Below, in pieces: positions 7,507 through 64,000 of a DNA stretch of 64,000 bases. The DNA is taken from NCBI GenBank assembly GCA_021201825.1, contig JAJQED010000017.1, positions 1-64,000 on the forward strand. Direction: 5' to 3'. Source of the stretch: Alistipes sp. GTDB taxonomy: Bacteria > Bacteroidota > Bacteroidia > Bacteroidales > Rikenellaceae. The notes under the pieces were generated by a model. It was not told the origin of the DNA. It worked only from the letters and a program-made list of their open reading frames with translations, and searched no databases. Numbering within the stretch: position 1 is the first letter of the stretch; each line of letters begins with the position of its first letter. The position numbers and the translations under genes were made by a program.

Positions 7507-8319
7507 TTAATCCCCGAAATATTCTATTTCGCGTACCCAAACCCCGTACAGCGACCCGTCCGAGTAAAGTTCACGGCGTATCCAGTTCCCGTGGTTGTCA
7601 TACTTATACCGGGCCTCGGTTATGCCCTCCCAGGTTTTTACTTCCGGGTGTGAAGAGTCAGTAAGAATATCGACGGTCCGTACCATGTCCCCGTTCCGGT
7701 CGTATTCTTCCCGGAACGAATCCCCGGAGCGCAAACGCATTACATCGCCGTCATACTCCATTGTGACACTTCCTTCCCTTATTAGCCGGCCACGCCGGTC
7801 AAATTCGAATTGGGTTACCACCCTCCCGGTATCTCCTATGATGGTTATCAGTTTTTCCGGATATCCGCGCTTGCCGTATTCATAGGAGGCTTCCCAGTCG
7901 GTCCCGGCGCCGTAATATTTCTCCAACCGGCCGGCCTGGTCATATTCATAATGGACCCAGCTTATGCTGTTTTTCAAAAGGTTCTGGTATTCGCTGCTCA
8001 ACACACGGGTACCCGTTTCATCGAACACGTATGTATCCCGCTGACTAAGTCTGCTCCCGCCCTCGGCGAACGTCTCCTCAAGGGTAATATTACCCTGACG
8101 GTTGTAGTGGCTCACGATCACGATATCGAAGTCCGTATTACGGTCCGGGTCGTCGGGATCGTCTCCCTCGTTGATATTAATATATCGGCTGGTTACCACG
8201 GCTACATCGCCTTTCAGGTTATTCTCCTGCCGGTCAGTCGGAACGCTGTAACGGGGCCTGCTTACAAAACAGGCCGTCGTGCAAAAAAGGGACAGGGCTG
8301 TCAGGGCTAAAATCCTCAT
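7507..8319 (-). CDS. Lipoprotein with RHS/YD-like repeats
   Basis: A 270-aa secreted protein. The signal MRILALTALSLFCTTAC ends in a lipobox-like TTAC. Beyond it, short beta segments recur in the YD/RHS style: VSHYNRQGNITLEETF, YEYDQAGRLEKYYG, FEFDRRGRLIREG, YKYDNHGNWIRRE. Such stand-alone YD-like lipoproteins are common in Bacteroidota and mostly uncharacterised. They are too short to be RHS toxins, and no toxin domain is seen. The ATG at 8319 is chosen over the TTG at 8337. The gene lies downstream of the fimbrial operon terminator and upstream of anSME. Confidence 0.75.
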   Translation of the reverse strand: MRILALTALSLFCTTACFVSRPRYSVPTDRQENNLKGDVAVVTSRYININEGDDPDDPDRNTDFDIVIVSHYNRQGNITLEETFAEGGSRLSQRDTYVFDETGTRVLSSEYQNLLKNSISWVHYEYDQAGRLEKYYGAGTDWEASYEYGKRGYPEKLITIIGDTGRVVTQFEFDRRGRLIREGSVTMEYDGDVMRLRSGDSFREEYDRNGDMVRTVDILTDSSHPEVKTWEGITEARYKYDNHGNWIRRELYSDGSLYGVWVREIEYFGD

Positions 8320-8358
8320 AATATTAGGTTTGTCCAAATATAGACAAAATTCCCATTA

Positions 8359-8395
8359 ATACGATGGGGAAGCCATACAGGCTTCCCCATCGTAT
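8359..8395 (-). terminator. Terminator hairpin of the fimbrial operon
   Basis: A perfect 16-bp inverted repeat (ATACGATGGGGAAGCC and complement) with a 5-base loop starts about 17 bases after the tip-gene stop. There is no long T run on the minus strand, so it may pause or protect the 3' end rather than act as a classic intrinsic terminator. Confidence 0.65.
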
Positions 8396-8411
8396 CATGC
8401 CTGAAGATCGA

Positions 8412-10619
8412 TCAATCCTCCCGGAGTACCACGTCCACGATCCATGCCCAAAGGTTGCCCATCATCACCTCGGCCGGATTGGCGGGGTCGATGGTGAGGG
8501 CCGCCGCGCTGGAGGTATCGATGTCGAGAAGATATCCTCCCGAGCCTGCATTGACGTTACTGTATATATCACAGTCCCCGCAAAGGATTATCCGGCGGTC
8601 GGGGTCTACCATCAGGGCGTAGTTGCCTCCGTTGCCGGTCAGCAACAAGGGCTGGAATCCGGCCGCCGCTGCCGCAGTGGGGTCTATCCCGCCGTAGGTA
8701 TCGTCCCGGCAGTTATAATCGAACGTATCGGGAAGCGTACCGAACGGCCCGTACCTTATGAAATCCGGTGCGTCGGTTCCTGCAAAGGTATAGTCTACTA
8801 CAGCGGTCTCGGGGACCCGGTTCAGGCCGAGCAGCGCCATTACGGTGTAGTTTGTTCCCGAGGTATTGTTCGCGGCCGTATTGTCGAACTGTACTATCAG
8901 CACCCGGTGCTCGTCTTCCTCGAGCCATTCGAGGATCGACTCGGCCTGTGCGGCCGTGGGATACCTGCCATAGGTAAGGTACAATACGTCGCTTCCCTGG
9001 TAATAATTCCGGGGCATGGTATTGTCCAGGCTCAAACCGGTAATATATATACCGTTCATATCCACGGTCTTACCGGGACCGAAATTCTGGGGTCCGTAAG
9101 CCAGCGTTCCGACAAGCATATAGCCCAGTCCCTGTGCACGTTCTCCCGGGGTGGGATTCCATCCGCTTCCTGTTACGAAATTACCCAGCGTGCCGATGTC
9201 AAGTGTGGAATTAAAAACACTTACCGCCCCGTTGCCGTAACTTGCCGGTCCTTGTGATACGGACAGCACTATGCGGAGCCGTCCGGCCGCGATGACCAGA
9301 TATTCGGTTTCGGCCGTAGCGGCATCGTATGCGGCGAGTGCCGTGAACGTAATTTCCGTGCCGTCGGAGGATATCGCGACGTTGAACAACCCGTCCGGAT
9401 CGTCGAAATCCTCCCCGAGGGTGATGTAGGTGCTCTCATCTGTTATATTGCCGTCCTCATCTCCCCAGTAAGCCCTGTAGGTGTCCAGACTGGTGTCCAC
9501 CCCGATACTGTCTTCGGAACCGGCCGCATATCCGAGCCGCACCGAACGGCGGGTTACCCCGAAATAGTCGTAATCGTCGAATACCATATCGAGGGTCACC
9601 TCGTCCCAGACCTGTATTTCGACCTCTATGCCCGTAGACGGGTTGACGGCCGCCTCGTCGTCCGTTGACCAGCCAGGAGCCAGCACCCCGGAGATATTGA
9701 ACCGGTAGAGGTGGTTCCGCAGGACCTGCCCGAACAGGGCGTCGTCCGGGTCGCCGCTATCGTCGTCCGGTATAAAATCCATCCGGTAATAGGTGGTCAC
9801 CGAACTTCCGTCATACAGGCCGCCAACTACCACCGATGTGGCCCCGAGCCGCCTGTCGGCCGCATCCGGTATGGCCGACTCGGGTATATATATCTGGTCG
9901 GTAAGCGAAGTGCCGGTAACGGCATAAGTACCGGTATCGACCGTTCCCGCCCCCGCAGGAACCGATGCGGTGCTTACCGAATTGTCCGTAAGTTCATCGG
10001 GGATAACCTGTATCTCATCCGTCGCCCGGTAGACTTTTACAGAGGTAAGGGTAAAGTTCGTAGCGGAATTATAAATATCCACCTTGGCCACGGAACGCAC
10101 CAGTACGGCATCGTCCACGGTAGTATCGGCCGTAAGCGCGGACAGGTCCACTACCCCGCTCATCGGCAGGACGTCATCGAAACCGGCCGAGGTATAGGCC
10201 ATAACTACGGCCTCTTTTACCTGGTCTTCCGTCATTCCGGCGGTAAGGCCGTTAAGGGCATCCGATGCGTTGGCTACCAGATAAAGCCTCAACGGGTTCG
10301 CCGAGGGCTGTAAACGTGCGAGAAATTCGTAGTCGTAATTATCCGAAGAGCTTCCGGCCGTCAGGGAATACCCACCTACGATGTACCGGTACACATAACC
10401 CGAGCCGGAATTCTCGAATACCAGAACGCTAATCTCGCTGACCTCTTCCTCCGCAACCGCCCGGGTACCCGTAGCCGAGGCACCGGGTGTATTGATTAGC
10501 AGCCGGAGCTTGACACCGGTGAAATCCTCATCCGGGCCCGTGGCCGGTTCCCTCGTGCAGGATACCGCCGCCAATGCAAGCAGGAATGCGGTCAATAGGT
10601 ATCTTATCTTTATCGCCAT
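8412..10619 (-). CDS. Fimbrial tip-type lipoprotein: FimA/Mfa-like N-terminus plus large C-terminal domain
   Basis: A 735-aa exported lipoprotein (signal to LALAAVSC) and the last gene of the fimbrial operon. Residues to about 350 resemble FimA/Mfa1-like subunits: GVKLRLLINTPGA, TRAVAEEEVSEISVLVF, then LRLYLVANASDAL. A BACON-like Ig segment follows near residues 370-480 (YLVIAAGRLRIVLSVSQG). The last 240 residues form a separate domain with alternating strand/helix pattern (DVLYLTYGRYPTAAQAESI, EDEHRVLIVQFD, then LLLTGNGGNYALMVDPDRR). That part resembles a GATase-like or VWA-like fold by eye only. Position and size suggest a tip adhesin. The ATG at 10619 is chosen because it starts the signal peptide. 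Confidence 0.75.
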   Translation of the reverse strand: MAIKIRYLLTAFLLALAAVSCTREPATGPDEDFTGVKLRLLINTPGASATGTRAVAEEEVSEISVLVFENSGSGYVYRYIVGGYSLTAGSSSDNYDYEFLARLQPSANPLRLYLVANASDALNGLTAGMTEDQVKEAVVMAYTSAGFDDVLPMSGVVDLSALTADTTVDDAVLVRSVAKVDIYNSATNFTLTSVKVYRATDEIQVIPDELTDNSVSTASVPAGAGTVDTGTYAVTGTSLTDQIYIPESAIPDAADRRLGATSVVVGGLYDGSSVTTYYRMDFIPDDDSGDPDDALFGQVLRNHLYRFNISGVLAPGWSTDDEAAVNPSTGIEVEIQVWDEVTLDMVFDDYDYFGVTRRSVRLGYAAGSEDSIGVDTSLDTYRAYWGDEDGNITDESTYITLGEDFDDPDGLFNVAISSDGTEITFTALAAYDAATAETEYLVIAAGRLRIVLSVSQGPASYGNGAVSVFNSTLDIGTLGNFVTGSGWNPTPGERAQGLGYMLVGTLAYGPQNFGPGKTVDMNGIYITGLSLDNTMPRNYYQGSDVLYLTYGRYPTAAQAESILEWLEEDEHRVLIVQFDNTAANNTSGTNYTVMALLGLNRVPETAVVDYTFAGTDAPDFIRYGPFGTLPDTFDYNCRDDTYGGIDPTAAAAAGFQPLLLTGNGGNYALMVDPDRRIILCGDCDIYSNVNAGSGGYLLDIDTSSAAALTIDPANPAEVMMGNLWAWIVDVVLRED

Positions 10620-51952: not shown

Positions 51953-54499
51953 TCAGACGAACAGCGACCCGACATTGTAGACCAAAAACGCGACTATCCA
52001 CGCGATAAGTGTGTTGAAAAAGAACGAGAACGCGGCCCATTTCCAACTTCCGGTCTCTTTCGCGATAGCCACCAGAGCCGCTATGCACGGGAAGTAAAGC
52101 AGTACAAAGACCAGGAACGACAGTGCCGTAAGGGGGGTAAGATCGGGTTTGCCCGTTACGGGGTCCGGGGCCGTAAGTTTTTCGGAGAGGGAGGCTGACG
52201 GATCCCCGTGGTCGGAATAGAGCACCCCGAGCGTACTTACTACGATCTCTTTGGCCGCCGCGCCCGAAATGAGCGATACGCTCAGCTTCCAATCGAAACC
52301 CAGCGGGCGCATTGCCGGCTCTATGGCCTGTCCTATCCGGCCGATATAGGAATTTTTCTGCTGGAGGTATTCTTCCAATATTTCCTCGTCCATAACAGGC
52401 TCGCCGGGCATACCGATGCGAACTACCTCAACAGGCTGTCCGCCGTCCGGAGCGAACCTTTCCCTTATCTCTTCCGCCTCCTCGTCGCTGAAACGGTAAG
52501 CCAGGTTTCGGGCTTCATGGGTCCCAGGGGCGGCCACTTCCGTGTCTTGTGCAACCGTATCGGGAGTCATTTCATACCGCGGGAAGTAACTCAGGAACCA
52601 AACTATAATGGAAGCCACGAGGATAATACCCCCCATCTTGCGCAGGTACTGTACGGCCTTGTCCCACATATGTCTTACGGTCGAACGGGCCGTGGGCATC
52701 CGGTAAGGCGGGAGTTCCATAACGAACGGGGTCTCGTCCTTATTGAAAATGAACCTGCGGAACAGGCGGGCCACAACCACGGCTACCACTATCCCCGTCA
52801 GGTAAAGCGACAGCATCACCGTCGAGCCGTGGGCAGGAAAGAACGTACCGATTATCAGCACGTAAACCGGCAGCCTCGCACTGCACGATATGAACGGGTT
52901 GACCAGGATCGTTATAAGTCGGCTGCTGTGGCTCTCGATGGTCCGGGTTGCCATAATGGCCGGCACGTTGCACCCGAACCCCATGATAAGCGGGATGAAA
53001 GACTTGCCGTGCAGGCCCATCTTGTGCATCAGCTTGTCCATAATAAACGCCGCACGGGCCATATATCCCGAGTCCTCCATAAAGGAGATGAACAGGTACA
53101 GGATCAGGATATTGGGCAGGAAGACGATCACACCGCCCACTCCGCCGAGGATACCGTCGGCGATCAGGTCCTTGAGCATCCCGTCGTGCATGATGCCCCC
53201 GATCCAGTCCCCGAGGGCGGCCACCCCGTCCTCGATCCACTCCATCGGGTAGGCCCCGAGTTTGAACGTGGCTTCGAACATCAGCCACATGATGAAAATG
53301 AATATCGGGAAGCCGAACAGCTTGTGCGTGACGAAAGAATCGATAATGGCCGTGGTCTGCACCTCGTCCTTAACGGTCGGGGTATAAGTTTCTTTCAGCG
53401 CGCCGGAAATAAAGCCGTACTTGTCGTTTGCGATGGCGGTCTCGAAATCTTCCCCGAGTTGGTTCTCCACGTCTTTGAGCAAGCGGTCGCGGATTGTGAG
53501 CCACTCCCCGTAGTTGGGGTTTCCGGCGAGGGTTCGTTCCGTTTCGGCGTCTTTTTCCAGCAGGCGGATAGCGGCATAGCGGGTCGAGAATTGCTCCAGT
53601 ACGCTCCCCTCCGATTTAAGCGCCCGCTCCATCGCTTCGATAGCCTTTTCGACCTCCGTATTATGGGTGATATGGATATGCTTGACCTGAGGGTCACGGT
53701 TCTCATAGACATCGATCACCCGGTCGAACAACTCCACGATGCCTTTGCCGGTGCGCGAAACGGTCGGCACCACCGGCATCCCGAGCATGTCTCCCAGATG
53801 GTTATAATCCAGCCCGGCCCCGCTCTTTTCCAGCTCGTCGTACATGTTGAGGGCCATGACCATGGTACAGTCCATGTCGATCAGCTCCGTTGTCAGGTAG
53901 AGGTTCCTCTCGAGGTTCGAAGCGGCCACGACGTTTATTACAACGTCGGGAGTATTATCGTACAGGTGCCTCCGGACATAGAGTTCCTCGGGCGAGTAGG
54001 CAGAGAGGGCATAGGTGCCCGGCAGGTCGTATATTTCGAAGCGGTAACCCTTATGGGTGAACGCGCCGCGTTTGGCGTCGACCGTTACCCCGCCATAATT
54101 CCCGACATGTTCATGGCGGCCGGAAGCGGCGTTGAACAGCGAGGTTTTGCCGCTGTTAGGGTTGCCCATAAGGGCGACATGGATCACCCTCTTGCGCGAG
54201 GTGATTACCTGGTGGAAATCATGCTCGACCACCTCCCCACCCCCGTCACGGGAACCGGCCAGGCGGCGGGCCTCCTCCTCGGTGATAACCTCCACCATCG
54301 CCGCCTCGCTGCGCCGCAGGGAAACCTCGTAGTCCATTATTTTATACTTGACAGGGTCACGCAGGGGGGCGTCCAGCACCACCGACACCGTTTTGCCGTG
54401 TACGAACCCCATCTCCATGATCCGGCGGCGGAACGCCCCGTGGCCCAATACCTTGATCACCACGGCGCTCTGGCCGGGTTGTAGTTCCGATAGACGCAT
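51953..54499 (-). CDS. feoB: Ferrous iron transporter FeoB with fused N-terminal FeoA domain
   Basis: An 848-aa inner-membrane Fe(II) importer. Residues 1-75 are a FeoA-type SH3 domain (MRLSELQPGQSAVVIKVLG, MEMGFVHGKTV). The G domain follows: G1 GNPNSGKTSLFN, G2 NYGGVTVDAK, G3 DLPGTYAL and G4-like ALNMYDE. The membrane part has the Gate motifs SCSARLPVYVLIIG and GFGCNVPAIMATR. A linker of about 80 residues lies between helices. FeoA-FeoB fusions are known in Bacteroidota. Its operon also encodes the Cys-rich microprotein, probably from a promoter ending 20 bases upstream. Confidence 0.96.
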   Translation of the reverse strand: MRLSELQPGQSAVVIKVLGHGAFRRRIMEMGFVHGKTVSVVLDAPLRDPVKYKIMDYEVSLRRSEAAMVEVITEEEARRLAGSRDGGGEVVEHDFHQVITSRKRVIHVALMGNPNSGKTSLFNAASGRHEHVGNYGGVTVDAKRGAFTHKGYRFEIYDLPGTYALSAYSPEELYVRRHLYDNTPDVVINVVAASNLERNLYLTTELIDMDCTMVMALNMYDELEKSGAGLDYNHLGDMLGMPVVPTVSRTGKGIVELFDRVIDVYENRDPQVKHIHITHNTEVEKAIEAMERALKSEGSVLEQFSTRYAAIRLLEKDAETERTLAGNPNYGEWLTIRDRLLKDVENQLGEDFETAIANDKYGFISGALKETYTPTVKDEVQTTAIIDSFVTHKLFGFPIFIFIMWLMFEATFKLGAYPMEWIEDGVAALGDWIGGIMHDGMLKDLIADGILGGVGGVIVFLPNILILYLFISFMEDSGYMARAAFIMDKLMHKMGLHGKSFIPLIMGFGCNVPAIMATRTIESHSSRLITILVNPFISCSARLPVYVLIIGTFFPAHGSTVMLSLYLTGIVVAVVVARLFRRFIFNKDETPFVMELPPYRMPTARSTVRHMWDKAVQYLRKMGGIILVASIIVWFLSYFPRYEMTPDTVAQDTEVAAPGTHEARNLAYRFSDEEAEEIRERFAPDGGQPVEVVRIGMPGEPVMDEEILEEYLQQKNSYIGRIGQAIEPAMRPLGFDWKLSVSLISGAAAKEIVVSTLGVLYSDHGDPSASLSEKLTAPDPVTGKPDLTPLTALSFLVFVLLYFPCIAALVAIAKETGSWKWAAFSFFFNTLIAWIVAFLVYNVGSLFV

Positions 54500-54824: not shown

Positions 54825-55214
54825 TCAACAGTTCGGTGAATTCTCCTGCCGGCGCTGTTCGTGCGCCCGGGCATGGGCCTCGATGAACGCGTCGCATTTC
54901 CCGGCGCAATCCCTGCAGGCCTCGGCACACCGCTGGCAATGGTCTTCCTGGAATTTACCGCACTCCTCGGCACAACCCAGACAGATGTTCTTACACAACA
55001 TCAGGACCTCGCGTTTGAACCTGGACCGCTTATATAGGAATTTCATGGCAAAGGAACAGGCTTCGATACAGTCCTTGTCCAGTCGTATGCAATCGGCCAT
55101 CATCTTTACGTTCTCCTCCGTCAGGCAGCTTGTGAAACAGTGGTTACACCTGTGAATACATTCGGTAAGGGCCTCCCGAAGTTCGTGGACGGCCTTTTTA
55201 ACTTCTTCGTTCAT
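54825..55214 (-). CDS. Four-helix-bundle copper-binding protein (DUF326, Csp-like)
   Basis: A 129-aa cytosolic protein with 17 cysteines spaced for inward-facing helices (ECIHRCNHCFTSC, ADCIRLDKDCIEAC, LCKNICLGCAEEC, HCQRCAEACRDCAGKC). DUF326/Csp proteins store Cu(I) in the core of a tetrameric four-helix bundle. There is no signal peptide, so it is the cytosolic Csp3-like form. It is monocistronic, with its own terminator, and lies beside the iron transporter but is not co-transcribed with it. The family call is secure; copper as the native metal is inferred from characterised homologues. Confidence 0.92.
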   Translation of the reverse strand: MNEEVKKAVHELREALTECIHRCNHCFTSCLTEENVKMMADCIRLDKDCIEACSFAMKFLYKRSRFKREVLMLCKNICLGCAEECGKFQEDHCQRCAEACRDCAGKCDAFIEAHARAHEQRRQENSPNC

Positions 55215-55277: not shown

Positions 55278-56684
55278 CTATATCTTGATCCGGGGTTTGT
55301 ACATATCTGCGGCAGTCAGCCCGCACTCCTTTTTCATCCGGATGCCGTATTCCAGTCCGCTTACCTCCGGGACCACATTGTTGGTCCCGAACGTGAATTT
55401 AACCCCGGCCTGCTTGGCCCGCAGGATAATAGCCTTGTTCGGTATTTGGTACAGTTCGTTTATCTCCAGCGCCTTACCGCTCGCGGCAAGGGCGGTAACG
55501 AACCGGTCTATCCGTGCATCGGTCCAGAAGTAATCGTAGCGTTCGTCCATGGGTGAGGGAAGGAAACACGGGTTGACATAAATATCGACCGGTTCCTGCA
55601 ACACCTCACAGATCTTATCGACTATCAGGTCCATATACTGCTGTTCATCCTCGATCCAGGTCTCCTCGGGGATCCACAATCTCGTGCGGCGCCCCTTATT
55701 GTCGGTGAAAGTCAGGGCGTCCGTAAATACGTAATCGAATTCCGCCCGGACTTCGGGAGAGAACGTGGTAATCCACTCCCTCCCCTCGGCCTGCATGGCA
55801 AGGATGAACGGCTCCATGCGCATCGTATCGAGGAAATCCCGGACCTCATTGTCGTTGGTAATTGTAAAACCGACACCGCAGTTGGGCGCGATGGCATAAT
55901 TGATACCCAGCCGGCGGGACTGTATGGCCGCCTCTTCCTTGGTAAGACCGCCTTTGAGGTGTACATGGTAATCGAGCACGGGGAAATCCTCCTGGTGCAG
56001 GCGGATGATCTCGTCCGTTTGTTCGTCGATGGGCCGGCTGAATGCGGGACGATTCGAGAAGATCACGTCATCCCCGGCGGGAACTTCGACGGTCATATTG
56101 CGGAGCAGTATTTCGCCCCCAGAATCCTGAACAACGGCGAACGTACCGTTCGACAGTACTTTGCCGGCATTTTCTGCCGTGCGGTAAGGGGCGGACGGTT
56201 CTATATATTCGACCACCGGCTCCCCGTTCACCTCTACCCGTATATAATCGCCGGACACTTTGATAGTGAGCGAGAACCACTCCCCGTCGCGAACGAAACT
56301 TTTGGTAAGATTGCGTACGGACACCAGGCTGCCGGTCTTCCGCCACCAAACCGGGGCTTCGGGATCATTATCTATGGCAACGGCGTAGCCTTTACCGTCC
56401 ACACCGTCCGCATGGAACAGTATACGGCCCGTAGCTCCACCGATAGTCATAATTTCGGTGTGCAACAGGAAATCGGTATAGTCACCGTCCTGCAGGACGG
56501 CAGATGACCCGTCGCCCGCAAGGGTAAGTATTCCATCTTCTATACCGTAATTTCCCGCCATGTCGGTAATTTGCCATAGGGACCGGCTGTCGTCGCTCAA
56601 CAGTTTGCGCGGTTTGTCCTGCCCGGTGCAGGCGAACAGCAACAATAAGATAGTTGCCGTAAGTATCAGTTCGAGTCTTTTCAT
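55278..56684 (-). CDS. Lipoprotein fusing a DUF1080 domain to a PHP/amidohydrolase-like domain
   Basis: A 468-aa secreted protein with lipobox ILLLLFAC. Residues about 30-205 form a DUF1080/laminin-G-like jellyroll: LWQITDMAGNYGIEDGILTL, DFLLHTEIM, ATGRILFHADGV, WFSLTIKVSGDYIRVEVNG. This is the 3-keto-disaccharide-hydrolase family fold. Residues about 235-468 contain VLDYHVHLKGGLTKEEA, a metal-binding HxH motif of PHP or amidohydrolase barrels, with LGINYAIAPNCG and VKFTFGTNNVVPE. Domain joining and position beside a DUF1080 locus suggest a two-step surface enzyme. It may alternatively be a PHP phosphoesterase with a carbohydrate-binding jellyroll. The substrate is unknown. Confidence 0.8.
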   Translation of the reverse strand: MKRLELILTATILLLLFACTGQDKPRKLLSDDSRSLWQITDMAGNYGIEDGILTLAGDGSSAVLQDGDYTDFLLHTEIMTIGGATGRILFHADGVDGKGYAVAIDNDPEAPVWWRKTGSLVSVRNLTKSFVRDGEWFSLTIKVSGDYIRVEVNGEPVVEYIEPSAPYRTAENAGKVLSNGTFAVVQDSGGEILLRNMTVEVPAGDDVIFSNRPAFSRPIDEQTDEIIRLHQEDFPVLDYHVHLKGGLTKEEAAIQSRRLGINYAIAPNCGVGFTITNDNEVRDFLDTMRMEPFILAMQAEGREWITTFSPEVRAEFDYVFTDALTFTDNKGRRTRLWIPEETWIEDEQQYMDLIVDKICEVLQEPVDIYVNPCFLPSPMDERYDYFWTDARIDRFVTALAASGKALEINELYQIPNKAIILRAKQAGVKFTFGTNNVVPEVSGLEYGIRMKKECGLTAADMYKPRIKI

Positions 56685-56791
56685 TTTATCGGGTTTTATC
56701 AGGTGCTAAATTAGCGAATTGTATTAAAATAACCCGGTGCGTTAAATTTTTGTCCCGTCCCCTGCCCCGGCGGGATACGGCGGCGGACCGA

Positions 56792-56823
56792 TTTGTATAT
56801 AAAAGAAAAAATTTATACTTTTA
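56792..56823 (+). promoter_or_regulatory. Candidate promoter of the 3-keto-glycoside operon
   Basis: TTTG (56792-56795) and TACTTTTA (56816-56823) are separated by 20 bases. The -7 box differs from TAnnTTTG only in its last base. The leader to the ATG at 56898 is about 70 bases. Confidence 0.45.
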
Positions 56824-56897
56824 ACGTCGCTCAAACCAACTTCCTGGAGTCTGGAATTTAACTATTACGAATCTTAAAACAATTATGCACAGAACGC

Positions 56898-57779
56898 ATG
56901 GACAGACGAGATTTTCTTAAAAAAAGTGCGTTGGCTGCCGCAGGTGCGGTTGCCGGCGGCTCGGTATTGTCATCCCTGCTCGGTCTGGGTGGCTGTACCG
57001 AGAAAGGCCGCCCGGTGAAGCGCATCGGCCTGCAGCTTTACTCCCTCAGGGAAGCTATGGGTACCGACCCCGAGGGGACACTCAAACTTATTTCCGAAAT
57101 GGGGTATAACGAGCTGGAAACGGCTTCGTACCGCGACGGCAAATTCTACGGGTACGACCCGAAAGAATTCCGCAAGATCGCGGCAGACCTGGGGATGAGC
57201 GTTTCGAGCGCGCACCTCGGCCGGGGGTACAACCCGGACGAAGAGGAGCAGATCATGGCATGGTGGGACCAGGCCCTGGACGCACAGGCGGAAGTTGGAG
57301 CGAGGTACACGATCGTACCGGGCATCGGACTGGGAGAGACCCTGGACGATGTTAAATTGATAGCCGATTATTTCAACCGTATCGGTGAAATGGCCAACCA
57401 AAGGGACCAGATGTTCGGTTTCCATAACCACAGCGGCGAGTTCCAGGAGCGGGACGGCCACGTGATCATGGACTACCTGATCGAGAACACCGACCCGGAC
57501 AAGGTGAATTACCAGCTGGACGTTTACTGGGCGAATATGGGCAACCATGACCCGGTAGCCTATATCAACAAGTATGCGGGCAGGTTCCCTACCCTGCATA
57601 TCAAGGACCAGTCCATTATCGGCGAGAGCGGCGACCTGGATTTCGAGGCCATATTCAAAGCGGGATATGCACAGGGCATGAAAGATTTCTATGTGGAAGT
57701 CGAGGAATATACCCTGCCTCCCGAAATCTGTGTGCAGAAGAGCTACGACTACCTGTACAACGCCGACTTTGTTAAATAA
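56898..57779 (+). CDS. Tat-exported sugar phosphate isomerase/epimerase-family protein
   Basis: A 293-aa TIM barrel of the xylose-isomerase-like/IolE family. The Tat signal is MDRRDFLKKSALAAAGAV, possibly lipidated at GLGGC. Barrel motifs are IGLQLYSLREAMG, YNELETASYRDGKFYG, then MFGFHNHSGEFQ with metal-site residues, VNYQLDVYWANMGNHDP, and FPTLHIKDQS. Exported members in Bacteroidota loci with Gfo/Idh and DUF1080 proteins act on oxidised glycosides as epimerases or lyases. The phosphate-sugar name is misleading for a periplasmic protein. It heads a three-gene operon. Confidence 0.88.
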   Translation: MDRRDFLKKSALAAAGAVAGGSVLSSLLGLGGCTEKGRPVKRIGLQLYSLREAMGTDPEGTLKLISEMGYNELETASYRDGKFYGYDPKEFRKIAADLGMSVSSAHLGRGYNPDEEEQIMAWWDQALDAQAEVGARYTIVPGIGLGETLDDVKLIADYFNRIGEMANQRDQMFGFHNHSGEFQERDGHVIMDYLIENTDPDKVNYQLDVYWANMGNHDPVAYINKYAGRFPTLHIKDQSIIGESGDLDFEAIFKAGYAQGMKDFYVEVEEYTLPPEICVQKSYDYLYNADFVK

Positions 57780-57812: not shown

Positions 57813-59291
57813 ATGTCAGGTAAAAAAATATCAAGGAGGGAATTTCTTACTCGGGGTGCGGCGGGCCTTGCCGCTTTCACTGTGGTTCCGAGTTCGGTGC
57901 TCGGCAAGGCGGCGGGACAGACCGCCCCGTCGGATAAGCTTAATATCGCCGGTGTAGGTGTCGGCGGCCGTGGCGGCGCCGTTATACGTGCTATGGAGAG
58001 CCAGAACATCGTCGGCCTTTGCGACGTTGACTGGAAATATTCCAAAGGGCTTTTCGACCGTTACCCGGATGCCAAGAAATACTGGGACTACCGCAAGATG
58101 TTCGACGAAATTGGTAAATCCATCGATGCAGTGGTTGTCGGCACGGCGGACCATACCCACGCTATCGTTTCGGCCGACGCCATGACGATGGGTAAACACG
58201 TATATTGCGAAAAACCGCTCACGCACAGCGTTTACGAATCCCGCCTGCTCACCAAACTCGCCGCAAAACACCAGGTGGCAACCCAAATGGGTAACCAGGG
58301 TGCTTCCGGCGAAGGGGTACGCAAAGTTTGCGACTGGATATGGAACGGCGAGATCGGAGAGGTTACTAAAGTGGAAGCGTTCACCGACCGCCCCATCTGG
58401 CCGCAGGGCCTTATGCGTCCCGAAAAAGTGGACCCCATTCCCGATACTCTCGACTGGGACCTGTTTATCGGTCCGGCCCCGATGAGGCCTTTCAACCATA
58501 TCTACTCCCCGTGGAACTGGCGCGGATGGTGGGACTTCGGGACCGGCGCGCTCGGCGATATGGCCTGCCATATCCTGCACCCGGTATTCAAAGGCCTGGC
58601 ACTGGGATACCCGACCAAGGCCCAGGGAAGCTCGACCCCGCTGCTGACCGAATGCGCCCCGAACGCCCAGATGGTAAAACTGACGTTCCCCGCACGCGGC
58701 AAAAAATACAGCGTGAAACTTCCCGAGGTGGACGTTTACTGGTATGACGGCGGGCTGCAGCCCCCGCGTCCGGCAGGGGTGCCCGACGGCAAGAACCTGA
58801 ACGATCAGGGCGGCGGCGTTATATTCCATGGCACGAAAGACACGCTTATTTGCGGTTGCTACGGCGTTAACCCGTGGCTGGTTTCGGGACGCAATCCCAA
58901 GGTTCCCGAACGTACCCGCGAAGTGCCGGATGACAATCACTACCTCGATTTCGTACGTGCATGTAAAGAGAGCCCAGAGAACCGTGTCCTCACGGCTTCG
59001 GACTTCTCGGAAGCAGGTCCGTTCAACGAAATGGTTGTAATGGGTGTGCTGGCCGTACGCCTGCAGGGCCTGAACAAGACCCTCGAATGGGACGGCGAGA
59101 ACATGCAGTTCACCAACATCAGCGACACCGACGAGCTGAGGATAATGATCGAGGACGGCTTCAGCATCAAGGACGGCCACCCGACTTTCAACAAGGTATG
59201 GACCGAGCCGTTCAACGCCAAGCAGTTCGCCAACGAGCTGATCAAGCACAACTACAGGGAAGGCTGGAAACTGGCCGATATGCCTAAATAG
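57813..59291 (+). CDS. Tat-exported Gfo/Idh/MocA oxidoreductase (probable glycoside 3-dehydrogenase)
   Basis: A 492-aa protein with Tat signal ISRREFLTRGAAGLAAFTV. The Rossmann motif is AGVGVGGRGGAVI, followed by KHVYCEKPLTHSVYE (EKP motif). The active-site and family motifs are WNWRGWWDFGTGALGDMACHI and the C-terminal NHYLDFVRACKESPE. It is a paralogue of the enzyme at 36.2 kb. Followed by a DUF1080 protein and preceded by an isomerase, it likely oxidises C3 of glycosides, so that the DUF1080 enzyme can cleave the 3-keto product. The reaction is inferred from family and locus. It starts 33 bases after the isomerase. Confidence 0.92.
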   Translation: MSGKKISRREFLTRGAAGLAAFTVVPSSVLGKAAGQTAPSDKLNIAGVGVGGRGGAVIRAMESQNIVGLCDVDWKYSKGLFDRYPDAKKYWDYRKMFDEIGKSIDAVVVGTADHTHAIVSADAMTMGKHVYCEKPLTHSVYESRLLTKLAAKHQVATQMGNQGASGEGVRKVCDWIWNGEIGEVTKVEAFTDRPIWPQGLMRPEKVDPIPDTLDWDLFIGPAPMRPFNHIYSPWNWRGWWDFGTGALGDMACHILHPVFKGLALGYPTKAQGSSTPLLTECAPNAQMVKLTFPARGKKYSVKLPEVDVYWYDGGLQPPRPAGVPDGKNLNDQGGGVIFHGTKDTLICGCYGVNPWLVSGRNPKVPERTREVPDDNHYLDFVRACKESPENRVLTASDFSEAGPFNEMVVMGVLAVRLQGLNKTLEWDGENMQFTNISDTDELRIMIEDGFSIKDGHPTFNKVWTEPFNAKQFANELIKHNYREGWKLADMPK

Positions 59292-59384: not shown

Positions 59385-60173
59385 ATGAAAAGAACATTTC
59401 GCATTTTAGGACTGGCCACCGCATCGGTTGCGATGGTTGCCTGCCTGGGCAGGAGCGGTAATTCGGGTGCTTCGGGCGACGCGGTTGCCGACGTTGTGGA
59501 AGACGACGAAAACGTTGTGGTCCTTTTCGACGGCTCTTCGCTGGACGGATGGCGCGGCTACAACCGGGAAGATATCCCCGGACGGTGGACTATCGAAGAC
59601 GGTGCGTTGAAATTCAACGGATCGGGCGGTGGTGAAGCCCAGAGCAACGACGGCGGCGACATTATTTTCGACCGGAAATTCAAGAATTTCGAGCTTACTT
59701 TCGACTGGAAAATTTCCAAAGGGGGTAACTCCGGCGTATTCTTCTACGCCCAGGAGATCCCGGGCCAGCCGATCTATATTTCGGCTCCAGAATACCAGAT
59801 ACTGGACAACGAGAACCACCCGGATGCAAGGCTGGGGGTGAACGGCAACCGTAAATCAGCTTCGCTGTATGACATGATCCCTGCCGATCCGCAGAACGCC
59901 AAACCTTACGGCGAATGGAATACCGGCGGCATCATGGTTTACAAAGGCACTGTAGTTCACTATCAGAACGGCGAACCGGTTGTGGAATACCACCTTTGGA
60001 CCGACCAGTGGAGGGAACTTATCGACAACAGTAAGTTCAGCCAGGAAAAATGGCCTCTCGCATACGAACTGCTGGTCAACCTCGGCGGTGACGAACGCGA
60101 GGGTTATATCGGCTTCCAGGACCATGGTGACGACGTGTGGTTCAAAAACATCAAAGTTAAGATCCTCGACTAA
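59385..60173 (+). CDS. DUF1080 (3-keto-disaccharide hydrolase) lipoprotein
   Basis: A 262-aa exported protein with lipobox ATASVAMVAC. The DUF1080 domain starts VVLFDGSSLDGWRGYNRED and continues GRWTIEDGALKFNGSG, FELTFDWKISKGGNSGVFF, YQILDNENHPD and DVWFKNIKVKILD. All blocks missing from the pseudogene at 37.7 kb are present here. Members cleave 3-keto-glycosides made by an upstream dehydrogenase. It lies 93 bases after the Gfo/Idh gene and ends the operon before a terminator. Confidence 0.9.
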   Translation: MKRTFRILGLATASVAMVACLGRSGNSGASGDAVADVVEDDENVVVLFDGSSLDGWRGYNREDIPGRWTIEDGALKFNGSGGGEAQSNDGGDIIFDRKFKNFELTFDWKISKGGNSGVFFYAQEIPGQPIYISAPEYQILDNENHPDARLGVNGNRKSASLYDMIPADPQNAKPYGEWNTGGIMVYKGTVVHYQNGEPVVEYHLWTDQWRELIDNSKFSQEKWPLAYELLVNLGGDEREGYIGFQDHGDDVWFKNIKVKILD

Positions 60174-60874: not shown

Positions 60875-61645
60875 TCATTCCTGTTTTTCGGTCAGGAACT
60901 TCCAGAAACGCCGTGGCATATGTTGACGCTGGAGGCGGGGGTTGAGCCGCTCTTTGATGGAAAGGGCTTTAAAATAATTCTTCCAAAGAGTTTGGAACAG
61001 CTGTTCGTCCTCGGCCATAAGGCGGGGATCGAGTTTGCCGTCCAAGAGGTGGCCGTCGTCCTCGAGTGTTACCTCGGTGGCATTTTTAAGGTCGTAATAA
61101 TAGCCGTACCGGCGTTTGACATCGTAGATCAGCCACTTTTGGTTCGAAAACCTGCCCGTGAAATATGCTATGGCAAGCGGCAGGGCGTTATACTCCGGCG
61201 AAACGGGGGCGAAAAAAGAATCGTCGCCCGCTTTCTGGAACCGGACGAACTGGCGCAGGAATTCCCCCTCGCGGCTCACCTTATGGGCAAGTTTTCGGAC
61301 CTCGAAAACACATTCGTCCGCAAGGTTATAGGCATAACCGTCGGGCGAATCGAAGATACGGCAAATGTACCGGAACAATAGCATATCGCTTCCCGGCTGT
61401 TCCGAGAGCCATACATGCAATATCATATTCCGGGGTTTCTTCGGCACTTTCTTTTCGATCCCTTTCCAGACGCGGGTAGATTTCGTCCTGTCGGTAACAA
61501 CATCATGGACCTCATCGGCGAACAAGGGAACCGGCTCGCCGTGGGCCAGTAGCTCCCCGGGGACCGTCTTTCGGAAATAGGCGTCGAATACCGCCGTCAA
61601 CAGCCCCTCGAATGTCTTATCGTACCTGAAAACAATCATGGTCAT
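60875..61645 (-). CDS. TIGR03915 family DNA-repair-associated protein
   Basis: A 256-aa protein. The conserved DUF4130/TIGR03915 pattern is seen in IVFRYDKTFEGLLTAVFDAY, EFLRQFVRFQKAGDDSFFA, FSNQKWLIYDVKRRYGYYYD and RQHMPRRFWKFLTEKQ. It is always paired with a TIGR03916 radical SAM protein in such loci and is proposed to act in repair or modification of DNA, without a proven reaction. It overlaps its radical SAM partner by four bases (ATGA). Confidence 0.93.
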   Translation of the reverse strand: MTMIVFRYDKTFEGLLTAVFDAYFRKTVPGELLAHGEPVPLFADEVHDVVTDRTKSTRVWKGIEKKVPKKPRNMILHVWLSEQPGSDMLLFRYICRIFDSPDGYAYNLADECVFEVRKLAHKVSREGEFLRQFVRFQKAGDDSFFAPVSPEYNALPLAIAYFTGRFSNQKWLIYDVKRRYGYYYDLKNATEVTLEDDGHLLDGKLDPRLMAEDEQLFQTLWKNYFKALSIKERLNPRLQRQHMPRRFWKFLTEKQE

Positions 61646-62907
61646 TCGGGAAAGACCAGTACCGCCTGCGATTCGTCGAAACCGCGACGGGGTTTCTTGC
61701 GGGTAAGTTCACGCCGTACGAATTCGGGGTGAACCTCGTTGATACTCGTGGACGTAAGCTCGCCACAGGTGATGAAATACTGGGCTTTTTTCATCACGAC
61801 CCCCAGCTTCTTCAGGGTGGAGGAAGTGATACGTGAAAAGCGCCTCGACGAAACGATGATCTTCGCCGACTTGACCCCGATGCCGGGAACGCGCAGAATG
61901 AGTTCATAATCGGCCCGGTTCAGGTCCACGGGGAAAGCCTCGGGATGCCGCAGGGCCCAGGCCAGTTTGGGGTCTATCTCCAGGTCGAGGTGGGGAAAGG
62001 AGTCGTCCACGATCTCGTCCGACCGGAAGCCGTAGAACCGCATAAGCCAGTCGGCCTGGTAGAGCCGGTTCTCCCGCACCAACGGGGCCTGTTTGAGGGC
62101 CGGCAGCCTGTGATCGTACTGGTTGACCGGTATAAACCCGGAGTAGTAAACCCGTTTCATCGACGGGCGGGTATATAGGGCGCTCGAAAGGCTCAGGATA
62201 TCTTTGTCCGTCTCGTCCGTAGCCCCGACGATCATCTGGGTACTCTGCCCGGCCGGGGCGAAACGCGGCGCATGGCGAGAGCGGCGGCGCTCCTCCACGC
62301 TTTCGAGCACCCCCTGCTGGATGAACTTCATTGGCTGATAGACACTGATATGGTCTTTCTCGGGGGCAAGGAGCTTAAGGTTCTGTTCGGTCGGGATCTC
62401 GATGTTGACACTCAGGCGGTCGGCATACAACCCGGCTTCGTTGACCAACTCCCGGCTGGCCCCGGGAATGCTTTTCATATGGATATACCCGTGATAGCGG
62501 TGGACCGTGCGCAGTTCTTTCACGACCCGCACCATCCGCTCCATCGTATAATCCGGGTCCCGGATCACCCCTGAACTGAGGAACAGCCCCTCTATATAGT
62601 TGCGGCGGTAGAACTCAATGGTCAGCGTCACCAGCTCCTGCACCGTGAACGTGGCGCGCGGCAGGTCGTTGCTCCGGCGGTTTATGCAATAGGCACAGTC
62701 GTAAATGCAGTGGTTCGTGAGCATTATCTTCAGTAGTGAAACACAGCGGCCGTCCTCCGTAAAACTGTGGCAGATTCCCGAGGCGCGCGAACTGCCAAGT
62801 TCGCCCGGCTTGCCCCGACGTGCGGACCCGCTCGATGCACATGACACGTCGTATTTGGCCGACTCGGCCAGCACGGTGAGTTTTTCGAGTATACGGTCTT
62901 TTAACAC
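61642..62907 (-). CDS. TIGR03916 radical SAM protein, putative DNA modification/repair
   Basis: A 421-aa enzyme. The cluster-binding motif is CIYDCAYC, preceded by SLLKIMLTNH. A helix-hairpin-helix near the C-terminus (ELILRVPGIGVKSAKIIVSSRRF) would bind DNA. Two further motifs, ELGSSRASGICHSFTEDG and EPTEQNLKLLAPEKD-like IPTEQNLKLLAPEKD, fit the family. It starts with GTG (62905-62907) and is the upstream gene of the pair. The reaction remains unproven, though an anaerobic DNA-lesion repair role is often suggested. Confidence 0.93.
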   Translation of the reverse strand: MLKDRILEKLTVLAESAKYDVSCASSGSARRGKPGELGSSRASGICHSFTEDGRCVSLLKIMLTNHCIYDCAYCINRRSNDLPRATFTVQELVTLTIEFYRRNYIEGLFLSSGVIRDPDYTMERMVRVVKELRTVHRYHGYIHMKSIPGASRELVNEAGLYADRLSVNIEIPTEQNLKLLAPEKDHISVYQPMKFIQQGVLESVEERRRSRHAPRFAPAGQSTQMIVGATDETDKDILSLSSALYTRPSMKRVYYSGFIPVNQYDHRLPALKQAPLVRENRLYQADWLMRFYGFRSDEIVDDSFPHLDLEIDPKLAWALRHPEAFPVDLNRADYELILRVPGIGVKSAKIIVSSRRFSRITSSTLKKLGVVMKKAQYFITCGELTSTSINEVHPEFVRRELTRKKPRRGFDESQAVLVFPE

Positions 62908-62996: not shown

Positions 62997-64000
62997 TTAT
63001 CTGTTTAAAATATGGGCATTTATAGTCCGGACGGCGCCGTCGAACGAACGGTCGCGGTAGACTTCGAGCCCGGCTTTCTGCAGACGGGCATGTCCCTCGC
63101 AAAGGGCCAGGTAGGCAGGTTCGGCCAGGCCGTAAACCACTTTGGCAAAGCCCTTAATGATCAATAGGTCTGCACATGAAAGCGGTTTGGATCTACGATG
63201 GGTGCACGGCTCCATCGAGCTATAGATAGTGGAACCGGCCAGGCCCACCCCGGCTGCCTCGGCCTTGGCGATGGCCGCCTCCTCGGCATGGTCCGCCGGG
63301 CCCGTTTCATGGGTAAAACCTTGGAAAACCGCACCGTCGGGAGTCACTACAACAGCGCCGACACGGTAAGCCGTATCGCACGGGGGTGACTGGCGGCTGG
63401 CTTCCACGGCCAATTTCAGGAATTCGGCGTCTTTTTCGCACACTGCCGGCGGCACCATATACATCACGGAGGTATTACCCAGTTTAATACTGTCCCGCAG
63501 TACAAGCCGGTTGTCCTTGTTCCACGGGTACTGTCCGTCAGGGACAAACCGGGGAGCGCGGCCGTCTCCCACGAAAAAAGGCGCTGTGGCAAGACGCAGG
63601 CAATCGAAATTACCGGACTTCATATACATACCCAGCACGGAGCTACCCCCCTCGACCAAAAGGACTCTCACCCCAAACGATCCGAGCGTGTCGGAAATGA
63701 TCTCCGGGTCTATGTGCGGGACCGTAATCACCTCGGCCATCCGCTGAATTTCCCTTATCCGCTCCACGGGGGTAGACCGTTCACAGAATACTAATTTGCG
63801 GCCGTTGCCCCGGGTAAAGAAACCGCTCTCGAGGTTCAAATTACCGGACCGGGTAACGGTGACCTTTAACGGTTCCGGTTCCATCCCCGTCTGTGAGCGC
63901 TGCCGGCGGATTTCCGGGTCTTTAATAACGAGTGACGGGTCGTCGGCCCGCACCGTCCCTGCGCCTACAAGGATAGCATCGCAACGGGTCCTGAGAGCCA
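62997..64000 (-). CDS. RibD-like bifunctional protein, reductase domain first (partial, runs off the right edge)
   Basis: The open frame continues past the window: beyond the ORF-track start it reads RCDAILVGAGTVRADDPSL, the RibD reductase motif. The N-terminal part is a RibD_C/DHFR-like reductase (to about FFVGDGRAPRFVPDG), with VRVLLVEGGSSVLG. The C-terminal part is a deaminase: GPADHAEEAAIAKAEAAGV and SSMEPCTHRRSKPLSC, with zinc ligands H, C and C and catalytic E. In E. coli RibD the deaminase comes first, so the order is swapped. A riboflavin-pathway or related pyrimidine role is likely. Confidence 0.85.
   Translation of the reverse strand, partial: ALRTRCDAILVGAGTVRADDPSLVIKDPEIRRQRSQTGMEPEPLKVTVTRSGNLNLESGFFTRGNGRKLVFCERSTPVERIREIQRMAEVITVPHIDPEIISDTLGSFGVRVLLVEGGSSVLGMYMKSGNFDCLRLATAPFFVGDGRAPRFVPDGQYPWNKDNRLVLRDSIKLGNTSVMYMVPPAVCEKDAEFLKLAVEASRQSPPCDTAYRVGAVVVTPDGAVFQGFTHETGPADHAEEAAIAKAEAAGVGLAGSTIYSSMEPCTHRRSKPLSCADLLIIKGFAKVVYGLAEPAYLALCEGHARLQKAGLEVYRDRSFDGAVRTINAHILNR

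Follow-up and report, generated by a model that had tools for sequence, protein, structure and literature searches.

A conserved Bacteroidales lipoprotein fuses a decayed DUF1080 domain to a putative PHP-derived barrel beside a 3-keto-glycoside operon

Gut bacteria process glycosides not only by ordinary hydrolysis but also, as has recently been recognised, by a 3-keto-glycoside route. In an Alistipes sp. contig (JAJQED010000017.1, of which we analysed a 64,000-nucleotide stretch, called the window here), genes of this kind lie divergent from a gene for a two-domain protein. What might that protein do? A first-pass annotation had read it as a lipoprotein that fuses DUF1080 to a PHP/amidohydrolase-like barrel, and had suggested that the two halves catalyse a coupled two-step reaction on an oxidised glycoside. 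The fusion itself was borne out by a PF06439 match, by NCBIfam PHP models, and by HHalign alignment to PolX PHP domains. The coupled reaction did not survive for the window protein, and we propose a different role.

The open reading frame occupies 55278-56684 on the minus strand, exactly the bounds first given, and encodes 468 amino acids with full-length homologues. All features of the fusion described below lie on that strand. A signal peptide with a lipobox Cys covers residues 1-19 (56628-56684). C19 is invariant in an alignment of fusions (25/25), as in a Bacteroidota lipoprotein signal and in agreement with the annotated lipoprotein, and the lipobox of the window protein has an atypical Phe at -2. 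A domain-architecture survey, in which 45 fusions were compared, found a conserved fusion mainly in Bacteroidales. Because the same DUF1080-plus-barrel architecture recurs across this order with 68 invariant columns, the fusion is not a chance one.

The N-terminal half was analysed by profile, by structure, and by residue. PF06439 (3keto-disac_hyd, DUF1080) matches residues 34-199 (56088-56585) with an E value of 1.4e-22 and 81.1 bits, against a curated cut-off of 26.8. The predicted fold is a jellyroll like that of solved DUF1080 members (Foldseek E values of 1e-11 to 3u1x and 1e-10 to 3s5q), and in the full-length model CBM66 sugar-binding modules are among the best Foldseek matches of this jellyroll. 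The Foldseek matches listed for the full-length model (PDB and viral) are to the jellyroll half. In the structure 9fbe, which is bound to 2-hydroxy-3-keto-glucal, BT2157 carries precisely the change of the His of its QDHG motif to Asn, and this substitution identifies that His as H275. BT2157 H275N is reported to lack hydration activity (PMC13273386). All 22 stand-alone relatives of the N-terminal half keep this His together with the Glu and Gln of an E-x-Q motif. The window protein has A101-V102-A103 (56376-56384) in place of E-x-Q and V185-Q186-D187-S188 (56121-56132) at the site of the catalytic His, with no His. The jellyroll is thus catalytically degenerate on both PF06439 motifs.

Such decay is widespread in the family. 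The triad of Glu, Gln, and His is complete in only 8 of the 45 fusions, those of L127 and L133 among them, and in the barrel tree the whole 21-member clade around the window protein has lost triad residues. On the same tree, no fewer than four changes, on branches with good support, are needed to explain the degenerate state. The two halves of triad-keeping fusions diverge equally (identities of 0.56 and 0.58, with an N/C divergence ratio of 1.10); in triad-losing fusions, the N/C ratios are 1.85 and 1.49, the N-terminal half being the faster. An enzyme domain freed from catalytic constraint shows this asymmetry. The profile and residues mark the DUF1080 half as a former 3-keto-glycoside eliminase/hydratase that has lost the catalytic residues. 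Most likely, it would now only bind or position a sugar, as a CBM-like jellyroll.

The C-terminal half (residues 216-468; 55281-56039) was harder to place. Taken alone, it has no match in Pfam, and the window barrel matches a PHP-type NCBIfam model directly only over residues 386-460 (E = 8e-5). NCBIfam PHP models match 12 of 12 diverse members of the barrel family, with a best E value of 2.6e-14, and HHalign aligns the family to the PHP domains of Bacteroidota PolX (97.5%, E = 5e-12). The final 70 residues of that alignment are firm, and mid-domain is less certain than both ends. Neither the profile of the main barrel family nor that of its Tat-exported subfamily (below) gave a PHP match among PDB sequences. 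An AlphaFold2 model of the full-length protein (pLDDT of 77 overall) has seven barrel strands, at residues 237-241, 262-265, 294-298, 318-321, 368-369, 405-409, and 430-433. A model of the barrel only was poor (pLDDT of 58), and its first structure match was the histidinol phosphatase 2yxo (E = 0.01). The Amidohydro_1 profile matches 2 of 12 barrel members, at best with an E value of 0.0011, and does not match the window protein. Some members have weak matches to adenosine deaminase models. A site of HxH plus His plus Asp, as in the amidohydrolase superfamily, is not present, there being no conserved third His. By profile and alignment, the barrel is a member of the PHP superfamily.

Active sites of such barrels sit at the C-terminal ends of the strands. 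In the full-length model, H240/H242, N268, Q298/E300, D322, N371, E407/N409, and N435/N436 are all predicted at or just past these ends. We compared them with the nine metal ligands of canonical PHP proteins, which are H, H, D/H, H, E, H, C/H, D/N, and H (PMC3666897), and of which those in PolX have been probed by mutagenesis (PMC6616362). Counts are for 48 main-family barrels plus 9 of the Tat-exported subfamily, 57 in total. The annotated HxH motif (DYHVHLKGG) is present as H240-V-H242 (55959-55967), corresponds to ligands 1 and 2, and is invariant (57/57). N268 (55881-55883) stands in place of the ligand-4 His, and N371 (55572-55574) in place of the His or Cys of ligand 7, each in 48 of 48 main-family barrels. 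In Q298-A-E300 (55785-55793), E300 is new and Q298 takes the position of the ligand-5 Glu, an assignment that rests on our G-[ILM]-[EQ] register, since HHalign places ligand 5 one residue off. The SDAH motif with ligands 8 and 9 is replaced by N435-N436 (55377-55382; 48/48), and Asn is tolerated at ligand 8 (PMC3666897). Position 324 (ligand 6) is Leu or Met in main-family barrels, position 437 (ligand 9) is variable, and ligand 3 is probably lost. From the canonical nine, H240, H242, and N435 alone remain.

Several of the altered positions are themselves fixed. Residues 240, 242, 244, 268, 298, 300, 302, 322, 371, 435, and 436 are each the same in 48 of 48 main-family barrels, and K244, E300, R302, D322, and N436 are new invariant residues there. 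D322 (55719-55721), at the end of a barrel strand, is invariant in all 57 barrels, and the alignment shows that the PHP-type EIN strand is retained as E407-I-N409 (55458-55466). Of the two active sites that had been supposed, then, the DUF1080 residues are lost, and in the barrel the HxH is kept and the other PHP ligands are gone or changed. The stand-alone, Tat-exported subfamily (nine loci, L111-L119) has HxH in 9/9, His at position 268 in 6/9, and Asp at 435 in 9/9, with Gln at 298, Trp or Cys at 371, and Arg at 437. In these residues, it is an intermediate between canonical PHP proteins and the main family. This suggests, as far as alignments can, that a hydrolase site with three metals was taken apart in steps, and that the pocket became fixed in the meantime.

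The genomic setting agrees with the annotated divergence from a 3-keto operon. Beyond an intergenic region (56685-56897), a complete BT2156-2158-like operon runs on the plus strand. It encodes a xylose-isomerase-like barrel (PF01261) with a Tat-type signal (56898-57779); a glycoside 3-dehydrogenase of the BT_2158 family (NF058561), also with a Tat-type signal (57813-59291), that scores 886 bits against a family cut-off of 750; and a BT2157-like DUF1080 eliminase/hydratase with intact PEYQ and QDHGDD motifs (59385-60173). A BT_2158-family dehydrogenase and a BT2157-like DUF1080 protein are thus adjacent, as in a 3-keto-glycoside locus. A xylose-isomerase-like barrel is also the next gene to the fusion in L021, L030, L131, L134, and Parabacteroides distasonis (L159), and the next gene to stand-alone Tat barrels in L115-L117. 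Such adjacency would rarely arise by chance because the host genome has only three xylose-isomerase-like genes; we estimate about a quarter of a percent per locus, assuming about 2,400 genes for 2.8 Mb. Genes for alpha-L-fucosidase, GH95, and a GH3 enzyme are near some barrel-family copies. Many other homologues adjoin unrelated genes, so the 3-keto link is partial and holds for a subset. A promoter search of the divergent spacer gave weak -7 matches in relatives and, for the window, no match to a conserved promoter, not even a weak -7.

Further loci were noted along the way. At L143, L144, and L145 (about 7894-8937), another type of stand-alone DUF1080 gene is convergent to the fusion gene, and its product ends QSESHP, not QDHG. 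The host genome has a second cluster (G000:C31:109975-112075; L149, L152, and L157), in which a xylose-isomerase-like barrel lies beside a two-DUF1080 protein, and, at C33:194235-195449, an open frame of 1140 amino acids that contains two DUF1080 domains. In the window, a FeoA-like domain is apparently fused ahead of FeoB at 51953-54499 (848 amino acids, read by eye), and the same strand encodes a Cys-rich DUF326 protein (54825-55214) between this FeoB-type gene and the gene of the fusion. At 60875-62907, a gene for a DUF4130 protein overlaps one for a radical-SAM/helix-hairpin-helix protein in an apparent two-gene unit. In the frame at 62997-63953, which may run past the window end, a RibD reductase-type domain precedes a cytidine-deaminase-type domain, whereas RibD usually has them the other way round.

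In Bacteroidales, the fusion is widespread. It was found at full length in 7 of the 61 genomes of a search of relatives, host included; in 3 of 396 genomes of a phylum sample, where strong barrel matches were full-length fusions only; and at 16 loci in a genome-contig search, mostly from Tannerellaceae and other Bacteroidales. Among plasmid records, the full architecture is in P. distasonis only. Counting barrels of every architecture, the family occurs in 42 of 393 Bacteroidales genomes. This order also carries stand-alone barrels, L110 and L121 among them, and two other fusions: a barrel joined to an N-terminal M28 peptidase (L125:5378-7354) and a barrel with a C-terminal part that has no Pfam match and looks GH-like by eye (L124:5743-7560). 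Within the host's own family, the fusion gene occurs in few genomes. In the barrel tree, the window copy falls in a mainly Tannerellaceae clade, and other members from the host family (L004 and L147) are elsewhere. This patchy presence and tree placement suggest that the gene has moved by horizontal transfer.

In the two-step enzyme first proposed, the DUF1080 half would cleave a 3-keto-glycoside and the barrel would process the product. The domain order, the lipoprotein export, and the adjacent 3-keto operon all speak for such coupling, as do the eight other fusions that keep the triad and in which both halves diverge evenly. For the window protein, however, it is hardly credible. In this protein, residues 101 and 103 are Ala and the site that matches H275 holds no His, the entire 21-member clade around it is without the triad, its N-terminal half evolves faster than the barrel, and an intact eliminase/hydratase is encoded next door. 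Nor is the classical PHP phosphoesterase/amidohydrolase site intact, with HxH and one Asn left of nine ligands. On the residue and rate tests, we rejected the coupled enzyme for the window protein. In the eight triad-keeping fusions, the two halves could still be coupled.

Loss of the DUF1080 active site and of the PHP metal cage might instead mean that neither half is catalytic. The protein would then be a lipoprotein of the surface or periplasm that binds or senses sugar, and would capture glycosides or keto-sugars to supply the pathway next door. The amide- and Trp-rich pocket is typical of sugar binding, and the E. coli Pol III PHP domain is a precedent for a conserved, metal-free, structural domain (PMC3666897). 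We consider this unlikely, however, because ligand-binding sites usually drift more than these barrel residues, which are invariant in 48 of 48 and include the charged E300, R302, K244, and D322, and because stand-alone exported barrels are not explained by a mere accessory domain. It also seems improbable that the barrel has remained a metal enzyme, with a mononuclear site reduced to HxH plus E300 or D322, and serves as a hydrolase of the PHP/amidohydrolase type, or as a lactonase, for sugar derivatives. The invariant HxH (57/57), the availability of both acids, the tolerance of Asn at ligand 8 (PMC3666897), and the weak Amidohydro_1 and adenosine deaminase matches in some members would all fit such a site. 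Ligands 4, 6, 7, and 9, and probably 3 and 5, have been lost, however, several of them to amides, and there is no further conserved His.

The reading that we favour, tentatively, is of an exported lipoprotein in which a metal-poor, PHP-derived barrel acts on sugar and a DUF1080 module has been reduced to sugar binding, beside a 3-keto-glycoside pathway. The linkage to that pathway is observed, and a role alongside it is what we infer. The working half would be the barrel, its metal cage rebuilt into an invariant pocket with two His residues (H240 and H242), the amides N268, Q298, N371, N435, and N436, the acids E300, D322, E341, and E407, the bases K244 and R302, and the Trp residues W304 and W387. 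Such a pocket would most likely use metal-poor acid/base chemistry to isomerise a sugar, cleave it as a lyase does, or hydrolyse it, and the substrate would probably be an oxidised (keto) sugar or a uronate-like product of the neighbouring enzymes. The pocket would not hydrolyse phosphoesters or amides, as canonical PHP and amidohydrolase enzymes do. Because the barrel also occurs alone or with other partners, namely an M28 peptidase and a GH-like part, its function need not be 3-keto-specific. A bolder proposal is possible but doubtful: that the PHP fold gave rise to an extracytoplasmic carbohydrate enzyme, which would isomerise or cleave keto-sugars in a metal-free pocket of His, amides, and acids, and which captured a DUF1080 enzyme that then decayed to a sugar-binding module.

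On the favoured reading, a 3-keto-glycoside or related sugar pathway would include an as yet unrecognised component, this conserved lipoprotein, whose Parabacteroides distasonis orthologue is WP_005861479.1. The family also records how a metal-enzyme fold can shed its ligands while its pocket stays invariant and intermediates survive, and how an attached enzyme domain decays repeatedly after fusion. Metal-free PHP domains (in E. coli Pol III), DUF1080 enzymes, and 3-keto pathways are already known. What seems new here is an exported PHP barrel whose pocket is lined with invariant amides and whose fusion partner is a DUF1080 domain in decay. Our literature search found no report of a DUF1080-PHP protein, in agreement with the first-pass annotation, which had not recognised a described enzyme, and no assigned role for the fusion.

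In its setting, the fusion resembles Bacteroides loci of the BT2156-BT2160 type, whose dehydrogenase, DUF1080 protein, and xylose-isomerase-like barrel are here encoded divergently next to it, and to which it is an additional component. With BT2157-type eliminases/hydratases (PF06439; PDB entries 3osd, 8rr2, 9fbe, and 8tda), it shares the jellyroll of its N-terminal half, the Pfam family, secretion, and the genomic setting; however, it lacks the catalytic H275 and the E-x-Q motif and adds the C-terminal barrel. With the PHP superfamily (YcdX, histidinol-phosphatase, and the PolX PHP domain), it shares HxH on strand 1, the EIN strand, a profile match, and, in the full-length model, a predicted barrel of seven strands, whereas of the nine ligands it keeps only the HxH pair and the ligand-8 Asn, is exported, and has no sign of phosphoester chemistry. 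In E. coli DNA polymerase III, which has a variant PHP domain, the fold has likewise been conserved after several metal ligands were lost. In the Pol III domain, however, Arg has often taken the place of a ligand and the role is a structural one, whereas in the fusion barrel they have become invariant amides, in a domain that is exported and sometimes stands alone.
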